Of a DNA stretch of 31,540 nt, positions 16,222 to 28,916 are shown piece by piece. The notes below the pieces were generated by a model that saw only the letters and a list, made by a program, of their open reading frames with translations, was not told the origin of the DNA and did not search any database. Position 1 is the stretch's first letter, and every line of letters starts with the position of its first letter. Where the stretch lies: positions 1-31,540 of the IMG/VR virus record IMGVR_UViG_3300030339_000168; one strand, 5' to 3'. The stretch is from a virus. The position numbers were made by a program, and so were the translations under genes.

Positions 16222-17139
16222 ATGTTTTCGAAAGTATCTAAAGAGTATCCAGTAATTGCATGGTTTAGTGGCGGTATTACATCAGCTATTGCCTGTTGGG
16301 TTGCAATATGTCTATTTGGTATAGATAATATACGAATAGTATTTATTGACACTCAAAATGAAGATGATGATACTTACAGATTTTTAGAGGATTGTGAAAG
16401 ATGGTATGGCAAGAAAATTGAAAGAATAACTGCTATCGACCCATCTGGAGAATACGCCTGCATTGAAGATGTGTGGGATAAATTTCTTTCATTAAACGTA
16501 GCGCATGGAGCTATATGTAGCTCTGAATTAAAACGAGCAGTTAGGTTAAAGTTTCAAAAAACAGAGCAGTATTCATTTCAGACTCATGGATTTGATTTGC
16601 TAGAAAATAAGAGAAGCCTTGGGATGACATTAAATTATTCTGACTCCAATCCAATTTATCCACTTCCGCTTATGGGATTAAGGAAAGTCGATTGTTTCAA
16701 AATAGCAAAGGATGCAGGAATAATACCTCCAAGAGCGTACAGCTGGGGATTACACAATAACAACTGTTTAAAAACTGGATGTGTTCAGGGAGGTATTGGA
16801 TATTGGCAATGGATGGGAAGAAATAAACCCGATTTATTTGATAACATGGCAGCCAAAGAACATGAGTTGACGAATAAAAAGGGCAGGCCTGTCACTATGC
16901 TAAAAGATCAAGGCAAGGACGGTGGATTTGTATTTTTAAAACCACATCCTGATTATCCTGACGTAAAAGACATTTCAATGATGTCTGGAAGGGAGCCAAA
17001 GCCACTTATGGAATGTAATGGCTTTTGTGGAATTGACGATCTTGGAGCTACTGATAAAACTGCGTTGGATGAATTAAATTTTGACAGTGATGATATTGTT
17101 CTGCCAAAAATCGAGTCCCCAAATTTGTTTGGATTTTGA
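16222..17139 (+). CDS. PAPS-reductase-like PP-loop protein
   Basis: The 305-residue protein has the PP-loop ATP-pyrophosphatase signature SGGITS at residues 16-21, a following FIDTQNEDDDTY as in PAPS reductases, and CSSELKRA at 99-106. Cysteines at 182 and 187 (NCLKTGC) and at 265 and 269 (CNGFCG) could bind a metal or an iron-sulphur cluster. Family members activate a substrate by adenylation and often transfer sulphur (PAPS reductase, TtcA, DndC). Phage copies are common, with mostly unknown roles; candidates are sulphur modification of DNA or tRNA, or defence-related chemistry. No DndA/D/E or Ssp partner is present in the window. Confidence 0.8.
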   Translation: MFSKVSKEYPVIAWFSGGITSAIACWVAICLFGIDNIRIVFIDTQNEDDDTYRFLEDCERWYGKKIERITAIDPSGEYACIEDVWDKFLSLNVAHGAICSSELKRAVRLKFQKTEQYSFQTHGFDLLENKRSLGMTLNYSDSNPIYPLPLMGLRKVDCFKIAKDAGIIPPRAYSWGLHNNNCLKTGCVQGGIGYWQWMGRNKPDLFDNMAAKEHELTNKKGRPVTMLKDQGKDGGFVFLKPHPDYPDVKDISMMSGREPKPLMECNGFCGIDDLGATDKTALDELNFDSDDIVLPKIESPNLFGF

Positions 17140-19376: not shown

Positions 19377-20117
19377 TTAAATATTAGAGTGATCATTATT
19401 ATATGCACAGCAACCGCCAGTTGTTAATGCTGACCATGCTGTATTATCTGTTACCTCTGGAATGGTTGATCCGTCACGGTATTTGGTTTCTGCTAGGTTA
19501 TCTGCAAGCCATTCTTGTGTGCCTATGCAAATTGTACGGTAAGCCTTGCCGTCATTTCCGATATATTGTCCTGTCTGCCCATTAGTAAGGGTTGTTGTAT
19601 CTTTTAACAGTCTTAATGATTTACCCTCATAAGTTCGATGCGCTCCGTGTTGCTCTGTCGTATTATTATAAAACAAAGCGAAAAAATAAGCATAAGTTGA
19701 TGATTCAAGCGATGACGACCATGAATTAAAGTCTTGATATAAATGTCCATATACACCTAAAACCCTATATCCTGACCCACGTGCATTAAATCCAGAATAA
19801 TTTGTTGCACCTGTATTTGGTGTTTGCCAATTAGATAATCCAACTTCTTTTAAATATGCGCCAGCAGTTAGATTCGTACCTACATAATTTGCAAGGGTAA
19901 TATATTCAGTCCTAGTTGGTACACTCCACCCAATTGAAGCTATATTTCGACTGTCTGATGCTGCATACCAATTATAAAGCATCCCATATTTTATTGGAGT
20001 GAATGTAGGAGCTTTCTCCCAAACCAACTTATCCCCCACATACACCTTTTGCATCTGAGTACCCCCATGCGATATTTGCTGCTGATTTTTAGTTGATGTT
20101 CCGATATATATTGGCAT
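19377..20117 (-). CDS. Receptor-binding-like tail protein with circularly permuted FISUMP domain
   Basis: The 246-residue protein begins with a tail-attachment-like segment (MQKVYVGDKLVWEK at residues 22-35). A FISUMP-type domain follows with its halves swapped: residues 43-172 (YGMLYNWYA, GWSVPTRTEY, PNTGATNYSGFNARG, SLRLLKD) match the usual C-terminal half, and residues 189-243 (DGKAYRTICIGTQEW, NLAETKYRDGS, ending CAYNND) match the usual N-terminal half. In the canonical domain YNND leads into YGxLYNWYA. FISUMP proteins have a C-type-lectin-like fold and the gene is last of the tail module, so host-surface binding is inferred. Confidence 0.72.
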   Translation of the reverse strand: MPIYIGTSTKNQQQISHGGTQMQKVYVGDKLVWEKAPTFTPIKYGMLYNWYAASDSRNIASIGWSVPTRTEYITLANYVGTNLTAGAYLKEVGLSNWQTPNTGATNYSGFNARGSGYRVLGVYGHLYQDFNSWSSSLESSTYAYFFALFYNNTTEQHGAHRTYEGKSLRLLKDTTTLTNGQTGQYIGNDGKAYRTICIGTQEWLADNLAETKYRDGSTIPEVTDNTAWSALTTGGCCAYNNDHSNI

Positions 20118-20119
20118 GG

Positions 20120-21481
20120 TTATTCCTCCACAAAATAAATGGTGTTACTGTCTTTTGTTGTAATTGCCGTATATGCAGCGAGTGTTCCAGACCAGTAATC
20201 TTTTGGCGAGATAGAACCGAGTGCTTGCACTTTTGCCAATTCCGCTTCAGTTAAATGCCCGAAGAAGTTATTGTCAGGGTCGCCACCGTCAAGACCATTA
20301 AGGGAGTTGTGTTCTGTGAGATTTGTACTTTCAGCTAATGATAATTCATAATAACAGTATGAACCATTACCGTTGGTATATTCGTCGTTCCATTCTTCCT
20401 GTTTTTGTGCATGAATTATTGAGTTTCCATTTCTATATTTTGTTGAATATAAATCCTCTGCCATCCATACCTGATCACCGATTTTTATAGTTGAACAAGT
20501 ATTTCCATCATTGTCAACCATTGTACTATCATCTATATCATCATCTTTTATTAATCTAACTGCACCACCTAAATATATAGCCCCTCCAACAACTCTAATT
20601 TCTGAAGTATAATTATGTATTGAAAACGCAAGCTGATTATTACTACCTAAGTTATCATAGCTGTGGTATACTGTTGTTTCCTTATATCCACCAAAACCAA
20701 TTTCACTGCGAGTTCCTGTGCCTATTGAGCTAAATTCATAATCATTTGTAGCTCCAATGTTTGGTGAACGCCATAGATAAATGCTATTTGCCTTTAAGTA
20801 TCCTCCGGCATTTGGCCATATTCCATACGCCCCAATATCAATGTGGTCTAAAAGTTCATACCACTCATAAATAGTTGGTACGTGCCATCCAACAGGAGCT
20901 ATATTTCTACTGTCAATTATCGAATGAAAATTATATAACATAGAACCATACCCCATTATAATTTTTTCTGACAGAACACTCCCCAACTCATGCGTATGCT
21001 TCCCATCAGCCTGAACATTCCCTGTTTCAGAAGTAATGGTATCAGGAAAATAGTTCGTTCCACCACCACCTGCCTGTTCATTAACCGTCAACTCCTGAGT
21101 TGCCGGATCAATACTAGCATACGCAGCACTCGCCGGATTTACAGTAACCGGATTGTGCATTTTATACGATGATCCGTAAGCAGGTTGCAAAATACGAGAA
21201 CCTTCACGAACAGGATTAATTTGCCCCCACTCAAACATATAATACCCTTCAACATCCAATGCCTGAATTTTGCTTTCGGACAAGTACCATAAAGCAGTAC
21301 CATCATCAACATTTGATTTGATGTAAACCCAATAATATTTTACAGGATCAAGATCAAAATCTGCTTCTGTTGTAATTGTCCACGTTTGGTGTTCTAGGTC
21401 ATAAATGCCACCCCAAACAATATCTTCGTTCTTGTGGGTTACAGTTCCAGTTGATCCGTATGCTATGTTTATACTTCCCAT
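20120..21481 (-). CDS. Tail fibre/baseplate protein with circularly permuted FISUMP domain
   Basis: The 453-residue protein has an N-terminal beta-rich part (about 1-130, INIAYGSTGTVTHKNED...), a glycine linker near 138-142, then a FISUMP domain in the same swapped order as its neighbour: residues 177-313 (YGSMLYNF, GWHVPTIYEW, PNIGATNDYEF, VRLIKD) then 323-379 (DGNTCSTIKIGDQVWMAEDL, STKYRNGN). The end (HNSLNGLDGG...FFGHLTEAELAKVQ) resembles phage fibre shaft or tip segments. It probably builds or decorates the distal tail and contacts the host surface. The downstream gene starts 2 bases after its stop. Confidence 0.7.
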   Translation of the reverse strand: MGSINIAYGSTGTVTHKNEDIVWGGIYDLEHQTWTITTEADFDLDPVKYYWVYIKSNVDDGTALWYLSESKIQALDVEGYYMFEWGQINPVREGSRILQPAYGSSYKMHNPVTVNPASAAYASIDPATQELTVNEQAGGGGTNYFPDTITSETGNVQADGKHTHELGSVLSEKIIMGYGSMLYNFHSIIDSRNIAPVGWHVPTIYEWYELLDHIDIGAYGIWPNAGGYLKANSIYLWRSPNIGATNDYEFSSIGTGTRSEIGFGGYKETTVYHSYDNLGSNNQLAFSIHNYTSEIRVVGGAIYLGGAVRLIKDDDIDDSTMVDNDGNTCSTIKIGDQVWMAEDLYSTKYRNGNSIIHAQKQEEWNDEYTNGNGSYCYYELSLAESTNLTEHNSLNGLDGGDPDNNFFGHLTEAELAKVQALGSISPKDYWSGTLAAYTAITTKDSNTIYFVEE

Positions 21482-21483
21482 TA

Positions 21484-23406
21484 TTAGTGATTTATTTCAA
21501 AATAAGCGTTTAGGATAAAGTCAGATTGCCTTAAATCAAGACTCAATGATTCTGGTCTGACAGACTGTTGTTGAATCCTTGCACCTTTCAGCTTGCCATT
21601 ATTGTCGGTTATTGACTCCTTAAATATGGTAGCTGTTTTTAGGTTATTGTTTGTTTCCTGAGCAGCCTTATATTCTCCGGCAGAACTGTATTGGTTTATT
21701 CGTTTGATGCCACTCTCAATCTTGTCTATCCTACCTTTAACCGGAACATCTGATATGGTCAGCGAATATGTTGGAAGGATAGCGTTAGCTTTAAACGAAA
21801 TGGTTATCCCCTGAATCAGTACTGTTTCGTCAGCACCCAAAATATCATCATGGATAGTTACCGCATTGCTCTCTCTCAGGTAGTATTCAACACCTGAATA
21901 TTTACGGACAAATTCTTCGGTGACTGTTATAGCATATGCTTTTGGCGTCCTATCATGCAATGGCAACCATGCTTCAGTATCAGATTTCAACCTAAGTTCT
22001 GCAGCCTCGATATACTCAGTGGGAATGAAAATATCCAGAAATACATATTCATCACCAATGGCAGGTTGAATAATTGAATTTGGAAGCATATAATTTACAT
22101 CATTGGCATTTCGTTCCATCACAATCTTATACAGCTTATTCCCAAAACCATCATCCCACAACGGGACACCACCAATATTGTTGATGAATTTGTTATACGA
22201 TACGATCTTGAACTCATTTGCTTGTAATAGTCCTGTTGTGAATGACATTTTTGCCGGAGAAGTTGTTTTGATATTCTCGTCGTTAATGTCAAATCCTGGG
22301 TCTGCGATGTAAACGGTAAATGTGTTTGTTGAATAGGCTGTCTGCGGTACTAATACCTGTTCTGTTTCAGCAGGATGCTCCTCTGCTATTGGCTCAGGTA
22401 TCGCATATGGTATTCCTTTCCATGCAGGAGTTTCCCAAGTTGTGTATGCCGGAGTAATAATTCTTGTTTCGTATTGCGGTGTCGATATAATGGGAGTATC
22501 AATAATAGCATCTACTGCAAATATCGTATTATCAAGAGCAGTAAATGTCGGATAAATCTCGTCATTTACATAGATGCCTTCATGTATGTTATCCATGTCA
22601 ATATTTGGCGAATCAATATATCCAGGATCAGGTAAGCATAGTCTAGGGGAGTAATCATGTCCTGAAATACCCATGCGATAATTGGTCGGGATATTCCTTG
22701 TTGAGCCATACGCACGAACCCTTGTTATTACAGGCTGATCATTCTGAACTCTGGTAATTTCACACAATCCTTTATCTTTTCCGAACTCAAACGTATGTTC
22801 GACGCTTTCTACCCGAACAACTACAGGACTATACCCAACAACTATTTCTCTTGTCGAAAAATTAATCTTCCAATCAAGTCCAAACAATGTATTTATTTGA
22901 AGTAACGCATCATAACACGTTCCATTTTCAACTGATACATCTTTGGTTATTGAAGGAACTTCTGGGTTTAAATCATATGACCAAGCTGAAGGATATATTC
23001 GGTTCATATTTGCCATGATCCGATTCAATAGCATTGTTGGTGTTGCAAAGACGTAAACTTCGGCTGTATTGCGGTTATATGCAGCATCAGACTCGAATCC
23101 TTCAACGTAATCCATGAACACAACATTTTTCAACTCATATCCCACCCACCAAAAGGTAGCGGTATATGAAATCATCAGGCTGTTGTAAACTCTATTGCCG
23201 ATAGGTATTGACTGAAGCCAGAAGCGTTCGGTTATTTCGGGGTGTTCAAATAATGCCAGATCAATGTAGTCACCGATGTTAAAGTCAATAGCTGTCGGTG
23301 ACTGTATAGTGACGGTAACTTTCCGTTCTCCCATATGTGTACCGGAATAATCATAGTCGTATGATTTAGCAAGGATAACGTCAGTCTTTGATTTTACTTC
23401 GATCAT
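21484..23406 (-). CDS. Tail hub / tail-associated lysin-type baseplate protein
   Basis: The 640-residue protein directly follows the distal tail gene (4-base overlap), the usual position of the Tal/gp44-like baseplate hub. The N-terminal third (MIEVKSKTDVILAKSYDYDY; GDYIDLALFEHPEITERFWL) resembles the hub fold; the middle carries repeated aromatic and proline-rich strands (TPAYTTWETPAWKGIPYAI), and the C-terminal part is a helix-to-beta fibre-like end (SLSLDLRQSDFILNAYFEIN). No peptidase or lysozyme motif is visible. Placement and length support the hub call more than motifs. Confidence 0.6.
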   Translation of the reverse strand: MIEVKSKTDVILAKSYDYDYSGTHMGERKVTVTIQSPTAIDFNIGDYIDLALFEHPEITERFWLQSIPIGNRVYNSLMISYTATFWWVGYELKNVVFMDYVEGFESDAAYNRNTAEVYVFATPTMLLNRIMANMNRIYPSAWSYDLNPEVPSITKDVSVENGTCYDALLQINTLFGLDWKINFSTREIVVGYSPVVVRVESVEHTFEFGKDKGLCEITRVQNDQPVITRVRAYGSTRNIPTNYRMGISGHDYSPRLCLPDPGYIDSPNIDMDNIHEGIYVNDEIYPTFTALDNTIFAVDAIIDTPIISTPQYETRIITPAYTTWETPAWKGIPYAIPEPIAEEHPAETEQVLVPQTAYSTNTFTVYIADPGFDINDENIKTTSPAKMSFTTGLLQANEFKIVSYNKFINNIGGVPLWDDGFGNKLYKIVMERNANDVNYMLPNSIIQPAIGDEYVFLDIFIPTEYIEAAELRLKSDTEAWLPLHDRTPKAYAITVTEEFVRKYSGVEYYLRESNAVTIHDDILGADETVLIQGITISFKANAILPTYSLTISDVPVKGRIDKIESGIKRINQYSSAGEYKAAQETNNNLKTATIFKESITDNNGKLKGARIQQQSVRPESLSLDLRQSDFILNAYFEINH

Positions 23407-26800: not shown

Positions 26801-28916
26801 CTTTAAATTCATTCGACCCCTTAGTTGCAGTTCTTAATGAGTTAAATACCAATTCAAGTTTTGCTGTCTGTGCCGCCATATTATCAGCAAATCCAGTTAC
26901 CTCATTTTTTGCTTTTTTAGTGTCATCAATCAATAAATAAAAGGCAGTTCCAATTAAAGTTATTGCGGTAAGTATTGCGCCTAGAGGATTAGATACAAAT
27001 GCTATCTTCAATGCGTTCCAAGCCCTAGCCCACATCGTAGTACCAGCAGCAGCAGCGGTAGCGGTAGTAGCAGCCGCTAATTGCTGTGCGCTCAATAGCG
27101 GCAATAACGTGGTTTGTTCTTTTGTCAATATGAGCATTGCCTTCTGTATTGGTATCGAAAGAATTATACTTGCTTTCCAAGCACCTTGGGCAATTGCGAG
27201 TGTTAATAATACCTTTCCGGTAGTAATTATCACATCCATATAATCCTTTAAGAATCCAATAGCTCCGGCTATATTATTGATTGTATTTTTAAACGCATCA
27301 CTTGCCCCCAAACTTTTTATCAACCCAGTAAACTGAGTACTCAATCTTCCCTGAGCAGCAGCCAACGTATCAATTTTAGTCAATGCCTCAATACCATACG
27401 CTTTCTCTAATGCAATAGCGAATTTCGGCAAAGCATCAGCAGAAAGTATCTGACCTTTCTTTAGTAGTTTATCAAGTTGAGGTATTGTAACGCCTAATGC
27501 GTTTGCCATGATTCCAAATGCACCTGGAAGTCGCTCTCCGAGTTGCCTCCTTAATTCTTCTGTGGAAACTTTTCCCTTACTAATCATCTGTTCCAGAGCT
27601 AGATACACCCCAGAAAGCTCGTCAGTTTTCAATCCCAACGTTCCGGCTGCTTTACTCACAGAATCAAATATCTTCTGGGTATCGGATGCTGTCATATTGG
27701 ATTGTAATGCCGCTGCTCTGAACTTAATGTATCGTTCAGACATGGTTAGCAAATCGCCACCATAATTGATCGCAACATCAGAAAGGAATTTCTGTGTCTG
27801 GGCGAGTTCAGTCGAGGATTTGATTACAGTTTTCATTGAGAAGTTCAATGAATCTAAATCCTTAGTCTGCATATAGACAGCACGACCTAAACCCATTACA
27901 GCCTGAACAGAAAGGTAGGCTGTTGCATATGTTTTGATTGCAGAGGTTAGTTTGCCCCAAAATCCGAGGGTTGGTTGGAGATCAGTAATTTCTGATTTTA
28001 CACCACGAATTGATGCTTGAAGCTGTTGGACATTGGCAACAGCATTTGGATCGGTGAATTTAACCTGAGTAAGTTGAAATTTCAGTAAGGCATATTGCGC
28101 CCGAAGCCGTTCAATCGAACCGACTGCCTGTGCATCGACTGCCATTTTAAGTTTTTGTTCTTGCCAATTAGCACGCAACGCCAATTGTTCTTCCCTAAGT
28201 GCTTTAGTCTGGGTAGCAACGTATGCCTTTGACCTCTGAGCCTCTAATGCTCTCATTGCAGACTGTTGCGCCTTGATCTCGGCAGTCAATTCCTTTTCTT
28301 TCTGGATATTGCCTGAAACGTAAGCCTTTGATCGTTGAGCCTCAAGCGACCGCAATGCAGACTCTTGTTTTTTTAATTCAGCGGTCAGTTGCTTTTCTTC
28401 ATCAAGATTAGATTTGACAAATGCCTTTGATCGCTGAGACTCCAATGACACCTTAGCTGTCTGTTCTAGTTTAGCCTGATCAGCAGCAGCCTTAGCAGCA
28501 TCTTTTCGTGCCTGAATATTTGCACGAAGCGTTTTGTTATATTCGTTTAATTGATCTTTTTGGGTGTTTATTGTTGTGAGTAGCTTACCGCCAACTTCTA
28601 CATCTGCTCTTTTGGCTCTGGATAAAGCCTCGTATGCTTTTACGTTTTCTGAAAGTTCAGTTTTCAGTTTTTCAATGCTACTCTTTATTGCAACAGTACT
28701 CTGGGCAATCGCTTCATTTGCCTTCGTGACATTATTCAGATCGGCAACATTTATCTTCGGACTAGCGACAGTTCCTTGCCCCGAAAGTATTTCCTTCCAT
28801 TGCTTATCCTTTTCTTGTAATTTTTTGGTGATCTCGTCAAGTTGCTTATCAAGTAGTTTTTGATTGACAAGCATATCATATTCTAACGTGCCTAATTTAT
28901 CTGGAGAGTCTGCCAT
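23853..28916 (-). CDS. Tail tape measure protein
   Basis: At 1687 residues this is the longest gene here. Long coiled coils flank a tape-measure domain (about residues 315-520): FWGKLTSAIKTYATAYLSVQ, STEELRRQLGERLPGAFGIM, ILSADALPKFAIALEKAYG. A hydrophobic region (about 555-662: LLTLAIAQG, NPLGAILTAITLIGTAFYLL) could reach the host membrane during DNA ejection. Residues about 155-240 hold a 33-residue repeat starting LEAQRSKAY. At about 0.15 nm per residue the protein predicts a tail near 250 nm. A promoter box lies just upstream, after a terminator. Confidence 0.88.
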   Translation of the reverse strand: MADSPDKLGTLEYDMLVNQKLLDKQLDEITKKLQEKDKQWKEILSGQGTVASPKINVADLNNVTKANEAIAQSTVAIKSSIEKLKTELSENVKAYEALSRAKRADVEVGGKLLTTINTQKDQLNEYNKTLRANIQARKDAAKAAADQAKLEQTAKVSLESQRSKAFVKSNLDEEKQLTAELKKQESALRSLEAQRSKAYVSGNIQKEKELTAEIKAQQSAMRALEAQRSKAYVATQTKALREEQLALRANWQEQKLKMAVDAQAVGSIERLRAQYALLKFQLTQVKFTDPNAVANVQQLQASIRGVKSEITDLQPTLGFWGKLTSAIKTYATAYLSVQAVMGLGRAVYMQTKDLDSLNFSMKTVIKSSTELAQTQKFLSDVAINYGGDLLTMSERYIKFRAAALQSNMTASDTQKIFDSVSKAAGTLGLKTDELSGVYLALEQMISKGKVSTEELRRQLGERLPGAFGIMANALGVTIPQLDKLLKKGQILSADALPKFAIALEKAYGIEALTKIDTLAAAQGRLSTQFTGLIKSLGASDAFKNTINNIAGAIGFLKDYMDVIITTGKVLLTLAIAQGAWKASIILSIPIQKAMLILTKEQTTLLPLLSAQQLAAATTATAAAAGTTMWARAWNALKIAFVSNPLGAILTAITLIGTAFYLLIDDTKKAKNEVTGFADNMAAQTAKLELVFNSLRTATKGSNEFKDAMFQINNMLTNGGFLDNLLTENNYLTEQSKAYKLLNEAIFDQILLKEQQAELEKSIAKYSEVVKKTQQEISTKPVNVDEYVSFGGLVSKQYKKEGADFGMFELSGDQQNKILMQVKDTAEKGLKSTKETLDDLKTGALKTVTEIIEGSKGLTKEQKDNLTSFYTNKLVSLTTDLRKAGDINRAEMKMAAELYSVTKKKVSDIFDPKDLADAKDEFDKFSGLIGDETKKQFVVDSKYVQSGVDTYKAYLLRLLDEFKNNQTARVAIENEISSIKEKKDPTIKLDEKRNEALKRLNDKYLADQEEFANFDLGIAAGRIAAMEDGIEKEKKLNELAYENRIAAINKEKQQRLDIINEIEGRKKGSPNEILDFNATGLSKEGQAKADEGLKNDTQYRINAKKVLDEANINSEKDYQYKIAELRRDANDQFLSGLEKERAAIDEKYDDWMRKAAAANDITLMADIGINQKIAQSELNKQYELDQLDFVREIEYKKNEIRLSGSAQSMKLEKANFDVYVKYERERIKILKSSTSIDKQKEGINKEAALAVDEKLFNIKQEKELEQKILDGAKQISEEYIKQAGLTGESAENLQLAVSTLQSIAKGDYLSAALGVVSKILTSFKNFSSDESEMVAYFEQLQAKISAIVDKISLLNNTLAKMGSSASVMGVQLLQSEMLNLANDAARLNEQLKIIADNEGRRGVGNTNAGTSTGGNRTEASDATEARKRIVVDLIKQTEYLNQQIILLSSKLLNPNLTEEQRKAVEAVLQGYIDIVDAIDSSIQSITGTSINELSNAIVDAFLAGENAAEAWGAKVNDIIKYMVKQQLIAQLLTKPITQAIQTLVGDSADGITPDEALKFKDTIKGITEDVAPAIAAASEAMKQVGIDLTTGAASSSAAGISKGIQALTEDTGRRLEGLINSIRESGVINMGNTKQLVESSQMIQGYAAQSLSELRMVNTNLATQIGIFNDWSTTTNGTGGKGIKVYVQ
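28190..28450 (-). repeat. 99-base tandem repeat in the tape measure gene
   Basis: The + strand motif GCCTTTGA(T/C)C(G/T)(C/T)TGAG recurs at 28225, 28324 and 28423, exactly 99 bases apart, encoding a 33-residue repeat that starts LESQRSKAF, LEAQRSKAY and LEAQRSKAY, with two full units and one truncated. The period is a multiple of 11 residues, fitting a coiled coil. Such repeats let tape measure length, and so tail length, change by recombination. Confidence 0.75.

Follow-up and report, generated by a model that had tools for sequence, protein, structure and literature searches.

Two adjacent genes of a viral contig encode proteins, termed here P1 and P2, in which the block that ends a canonical FISUMP domain (the C-block) precedes the block that begins it (the N-block). 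This order is a circular permutation of FISUMP. Very probably the two proteins belong to the tail tip of a tailed phage, probably one of Bacteroidota, and both present a FISUMP domain, of the C-type-lectin-like kind, in circularly permuted form.

The window analysed is the whole contig (G000) of 31,540 bases. It encodes an SPP1-like portal protein, and the phage is considered tailed because portal, tape measure and tail-tip genes are all present. The tail-tip gene is followed on the same strand, directly downstream, by P2 and then by P1. The coordinates and open frames that the earlier note had given for the two proteins are correct. The features are as follows.

19377..20117, minus strand: P1, 246 amino acids; a putative N-terminal beta-hairpin anchor and one permuted FISUMP domain reaching the C-terminus
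19989..20117, minus strand: P1 residues 1-43; a flexible start and beta strands 14-17, 20-27 and 30-35 in the secondary structure of the model; probable attachment part
19599..19988, minus strand: P1 C-block, residues 44-173 (YGMLYNWYA ... SLRLLKD), canonical FISUMP about 49-184
19380..19598, minus strand: P1 linker and N-block, residues 174-246 (TTTLTNGQTGQYIGNDGKAYRTICIG ... CAYNNDHSNI), canonical FISUMP about 1-50
20120..21481, minus strand: P2, 453 amino acids; a tail protein with an N-terminal tail part, a permuted FISUMP domain and a C-terminal tail-tip repeat
21167..21403, minus strand: P2 residues 27-105, resembling the inner part of the large phage protein family phrog_19846
20543..20950, minus strand: P2 C-block, residues 178-313 (YGSMLYNF ... 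AVRLIKD), placed by profile and rotation scan
20330..20542, minus strand: P2 linker and N-block, residues 314-384 (DDIDDSTMVDNDGNTCSTIKIG ... SYCYYE), placed by profile and rotation scan
20129..20200, minus strand: P2 residues 428-451, Phage_tail_C motif (PF24243), a profile match
21484..23406, minus strand: tail-tip protein (Tal/prophage endopeptidase tail-like), directly upstream of P2
23853..28916, minus strand: tape measure protein (PF20155), which sets P1 and P2 in the tail module

The N-terminal part of phrog_19846 matches the gene upstream of P2. The relatives of the tail-tip gene are found in phages of Bacteroides, Parabacteroides, Porphyromonas and Riemerella. The N-block of P2 is not C-terminal but is followed by about 70 further residues that end in the Phage_tail_C motif. 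Elsewhere in the window, three 45-nt DNA repeats with a spacing of 99 nt (28223-28465) lie within the tape measure gene and encode repeated QRSKA-type units, and the phage gene at 16222-17139 has a weak likeness to PAPS reductase (PF01507), under the cut-off.

The reversed order is evident from profile matches and from rotation of the sequence. P1 scores 78.6 bits with PF09603 (curated cut-off 33.9 bits) and 73.4 bits with TIGR02145 (cut-off 41.65 bits); the corresponding scores of P2 are 73.4 and 72.1 bits. The best PF09603 stretch of P1, residues 43-169, corresponds to profile positions 49-184, with profile positions 3-50 found downstream of it. Residues 178-286 of P2 correspond likewise to profile positions 50-164, within a C half that spans 50-166, and are followed by positions 1-57. 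Both conserved halves of FISUMP are thus present in each protein, and the canonical run from profile position 1 to 187, N to C, is found in neither. Since their halves are reversed, P1 and P2 are classed as permuted relatives of FISUMP rather than as canonical members. In a rotation scan every rotation of the two domains was aligned to a canonical FISUMP protein (L064), with shuffled sequences as the control. The best cut in P1 is at residue 174, right after SLRLLKD, and raises the score from 72 unrotated to 322, while 200 shuffles reach at most 15. For P2 the best cut is at residues 314/320, right after AVRLIKD (277 versus 49 unrotated; shuffles at most 15). In the rotated register P1 and L064 are identical at 54 of 129 positions in the C-blocks and at 30 of 72 in the N-blocks. 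The P1 domain now begins with the conserved YGxLYNWYA strand and finishes at the YNND turn; in the canonical chain these two lie close to each other. The profiles of both models and the rotation scans therefore agree with the earlier note that the C-block comes first in both proteins, and, together with the structure models described below, that P1 is permuted exactly at the canonical YNND / YGxLYNWYA junction. An assembly artefact does not account for the order, because a copy of P2 that is 100% identical is present in a second contig (L058) and because 85 single-domain frames have this order.

These frames come from a survey in which viral contigs were scanned with P1, P2, an alignment of permuted sequences and an alignment of canonical ones, and an N model and a C model were then placed separately in the loci obtained. 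Among the distinct open frames of 220 loci, those of the permuted type comprise 85 CN, 17 CNCN, 1 CNCNCN, 3 CNCNN, 4 CCN and 1 CNN, and those of the canonical type 52 NC, 3 NCNC, 1 NCNCNCNC and 1 NCNCC; the counts depend on the queries, as loci were picked with both kinds, and are not frequencies. The permuted order thus occurs in 85 single-domain and 26 multi-domain frames, nearly all of them on viral contigs, which bears out the mention of similar-looking prophage proteins in the earlier note. OP947161.1 alone among the annotated phages has the permuted form. A viral structure library gave two full-length matches, one of which is annotated as Fibrobacter succinogenes major paralogous domain.

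Cellular genomes present a different picture. The eight that were reached through the loci hold more than 100 FISUMP matches, nearly all canonical, and three Bacteroidales MAGs have one permuted copy each. In an even draw of Bacteroidota, FISUMP was found in 26 of 61 genomes, with about 100 matches, of which the sole permuted one is that of G001; none of the other 60 genomes has the CN order, though 25 of them carry FISUMP. The canonical FISUMP proteins of the sampled cellular genomes did not show the permuted order. Two of the three permuted cellular copies (L062 and L063) sit among phage genes. The third, in a Bacteroidales MAG (L061:5209-6633), has as neighbours PorP/SprF and a type IX secretion-signal protein of the CHU_C kind; its setting is not that of a phage, so that the permuted form is not strictly confined to phages and not every cellular copy is an obvious prophage. 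The permuted form is common in phages and rare in the sampled bacterial genomes. As a separate observation, one Bacteroidota genome (G061, contig C31, about 1.6-101 kb) carries a cluster of about thirty canonical FISUMP domains that extends over roughly 100 kb.

The earlier note had derived both genes from one ancestral permutation and then a tandem duplication. The second step is unlikely: identity over the shared domain is 34% between P1 and P2 and reaches about 55% between P1 and domains of other phages, and in a careful tree of 56 rows P1 groups with L007/L017 (support 90/87) and P2 with L123 (94/92). A clade of P1 and P2 was not rejected by the AU test (p 0.24). A single permutation fits the trees without being demonstrated by them. 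On the full tree block order changes 5 times, compared with 33.8 times in shuffles, and the canonical rows held as one clade were not rejected (p 0.22). The clade tests were taken from the 56-row tree, as quick 81-row trees were under-searched (constrained trees scored above free ones). Several independent permutations at the same junction would account for the 5 changes on the full tree and the 4-5 on the 56-row tree. The deep branches are poorly supported, and this, together with the clustering of block order and the p value of the canonical clade, speaks against repeated events, which we regard as a possible but rather doubtful history. A single origin of the permutation is possible on these sequence comparisons.

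As judged from circular permutation in general, the permuted form probably arose by duplication (NC to NCNC), with the outer halves of the array lost afterwards. Viral contigs do contain tightly joined canonical tandem arrays (L202, L215), and an NC-NC array of this kind is the likely source. A short linker would then have joined the first and the last strands, the former ends of the fold, which are adjacent in lectin-like domains, and the new ends would lie in the connection just ahead of the first helix.

The P1 structure was predicted with AlphaFold2 from an alignment of 64 permuted sequences (mean pLDDT 92.4, pTM 0.83), and the canonical protein L064 from 25 canonical sequences (pLDDT 87.4). 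The two blocks of P1, for which separate folds had been considered in the earlier note, are predicted to form one compact domain, with a pLDDT of about 98 over residues 44-246. The secondary-structure elements of the canonical model recur in the P1 model in rotated order, and after rotation the two agree at 110 of 129 positions in the C-block and at 66 of 72 in the N-block. The P2 domain probably has the same permuted fold, judging from its 34% colinear identity to P1.

Comparison with solved structures places P1, at modest Z scores and by its C-block, in the C-type-lectin-like fold, as far as a predicted model allows. With VIA-align the C-block (residues 44-176) matched 8oks at Z 5.8, 8q4e at Z 5.4 and 7qaj at Z 4.5, and unrelated rows gave at most 2.7; formylglycine-generating enzyme was also among the matches, and the N-block stayed unaligned. 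The canonical model matched the same three structures along its entire chain at Z 6.6-7.8. The P1 C-block covers residues 309-401 of 8q4e (Lcl), 539-627 of 8oks (Bd2740, C-terminal domain) and 16-124 of 7qaj (a snake lectin), compared with 271-400, 519-625 and 0-123 for the canonical model. The stretch left uncovered by P1 is that covered by the canonical N-block, as is expected of a circular permutation under a sequential aligner, and the Z scores of P1 are modest because the aligners are sequential. A plain Foldseek search of P1 against the PDB gave no significant match, which is likewise expected of a sequential method, and a sequence search for a solved FISUMP structure found none at a meaningful E-value.

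The same model bears on whether the chains are closed domains at all. Tail fibres are usually trimers, and in a trimer the N-block of one subunit could complete the C-block of its neighbour by strand swapping. The linker between the C- and N-blocks, 5-38 residues long (median 10), suits either arrangement. Its short, conserved character (2.4 bits) suits a connection within one chain, however, and the P1 monomer is predicted as a compact single domain (pLDDT about 98, pTM 0.83); the swapped arrangement is therefore improbable. It is less probable still that P1 and P2 are remnants of a canonical tandem array cut at both ends, their blocks being halves of two incomplete domains: the arrays L202 and L215 are a likely source of such remnants, but 85 single-domain frames have exactly one C-block and one N-block, relatives are about 30-55% identical across both blocks, and the P1 model folds the blocks together.

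Permuted domains also appear to be nested within one another. In 13 multi-domain proteins (L013, L018, L023, L028, L039, L103, L116, L120, L151, L176, L183, L184 and L205) the second C-block starts late, without up to about 16 of its initial residues, and a spare YGxLYNWY strand is found some 13-21 residues ahead of the first C-block. This pattern was found post hoc, the strand being called by a regular expression, and many of the 13 proteins are related; where the C-blocks are complete, as in 11 multi-domain proteins, no such strand precedes the first of them. Read from sequence, the 13 proteins would each have a permuted domain inserted in another just past its first strand. In three further proteins (L108:4344-6071, L117:3648-7610 and L131:2631-6599) the N-block of one permuted domain is interrupted at the ...YRNG/D.IP... 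turn by a second CN domain and continues beyond it. The stretch between the split blocks of L117:3648-7610 looks DUF1566-like by eye (DWFLPSHDEL...WSSTE...VRACRSF, then YNLRDTGLAGGLIF) and is possibly permuted too. The pairing of N- and C-blocks in nested proteins, judged by correlation of similarity, leans to adjacent pairing in 9 of 12, with weak correlations. The layouts y2-[y1-C1-N1]-C2-N2 and C1-N1a-[C2-N2]-N1b, in which y denotes the strand that opens a C-block, are proposed with moderate confidence. As the new ends lie close together along the canonical chain, a permuted domain should be able to insert into loops of other proteins, and this fits the nesting. On balance, the permuted FISUMP domain would seem to be a phage-enriched, insertable cassette that gives rise to nested lectin-like stacks in tail proteins.

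P1 and P2 probably serve in receptor binding at the tail tip, a role to which their gene position beside the tail-tip gene and near the tape measure gene, the tail-tip repeat of P2 and the variability of P1 all point. Residues 119-164 of P1 are hypervariable (1.08 bits, compared with 2.2-3.1 elsewhere). Attachment to the tail tip would fall to the N-terminal part, and a ligand on the host surface may be contacted by the hypervariable sheet and loop region.

FISUMP proteins have been reported as targets of diversity-generating retroelements (DGRs), also in phages of Bacteroides uniformis (PMC4159848, PMC8143477). These published targets would favour the same for the permuted domains, which is nevertheless most improbable: neither the reverse transcriptase RVT_1 nor a convincing template repeat is present in the 31.5-kb window, which may be an incomplete contig, and reverse transcriptase is rare in contigs with the CN order (1 of 50, compared with 3 of 32 with the NC order). 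A DGR link was accordingly rejected for P1 and P2. A viral contig with a canonical FISUMP domain (L100, contig G030) also encodes an RVT_1 reverse transcriptase at 37934-38632, possibly part of a DGR.

P1 and P2 resemble FISUMP (Fib_succ_major; PF09603, TIGR02145) in all conserved blocks, in passing the cut-offs and in the predicted secondary-structure elements; they differ in the swapped order of the blocks, in a short linker that connects the old ends and in new ends at the ...YNND / YGxLYNWYA junction. The C-terminal domain of Lcl and other lectin-like domains (8q4e, 8oks, 7qaj; the formylglycine-generating enzyme fold), to which the P1 C-block aligns, have the fold of the canonical FISUMP model, but their first strand is N-terminal, whereas the matching part of P1 is at the C-terminus. 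The Fib_succ_major/DUF1566 variable proteins of DGRs in Bacteroides phages (PMC8143477, PMC4159848) are, like P1 and P2, phage lectin-like domains with a presumed role in receptor binding; block order is not discussed in the accessible portions of these reports, and the window of P1 and P2, unlike those systems, has no reverse transcriptase. Three phage proteins, A0A6J5N676, A0A1B1IUD2 and WBC28475.1 (Rhodobacteraceae phage LS06-2018-MD05), align colinearly with P1 along the entire permuted domain; where annotated, they are called Fibrobacter succinogenes major (paralogous) domain, with no mention of a permutation. No description of this permutation was found in a literature represented mostly by titles and abstracts, with few subscription journals; this absence is weak evidence, because such journals lay mostly outside the search. 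The fold and the family are already known, and the permuted, phage-enriched, nesting form is undescribed as far as that literature goes.

Because of the permutation, linear profiles split proteins of this type into two partial matches, and annotation by one linear model conceals the domain architecture, which calls for caution. Lectin-like domains are a main scaffold of phages for variable binding. The permuted form, widespread in uncultivated phages and nearly absent from the sampled host genomes, is a sequence marker for phage adhesins. It is also a natural case in which the benefits of circular permutation, namely a new attachment point, insertability and nesting, can be considered, and it suggests that phages use permuted FISUMP as an easily inserted sticky module.
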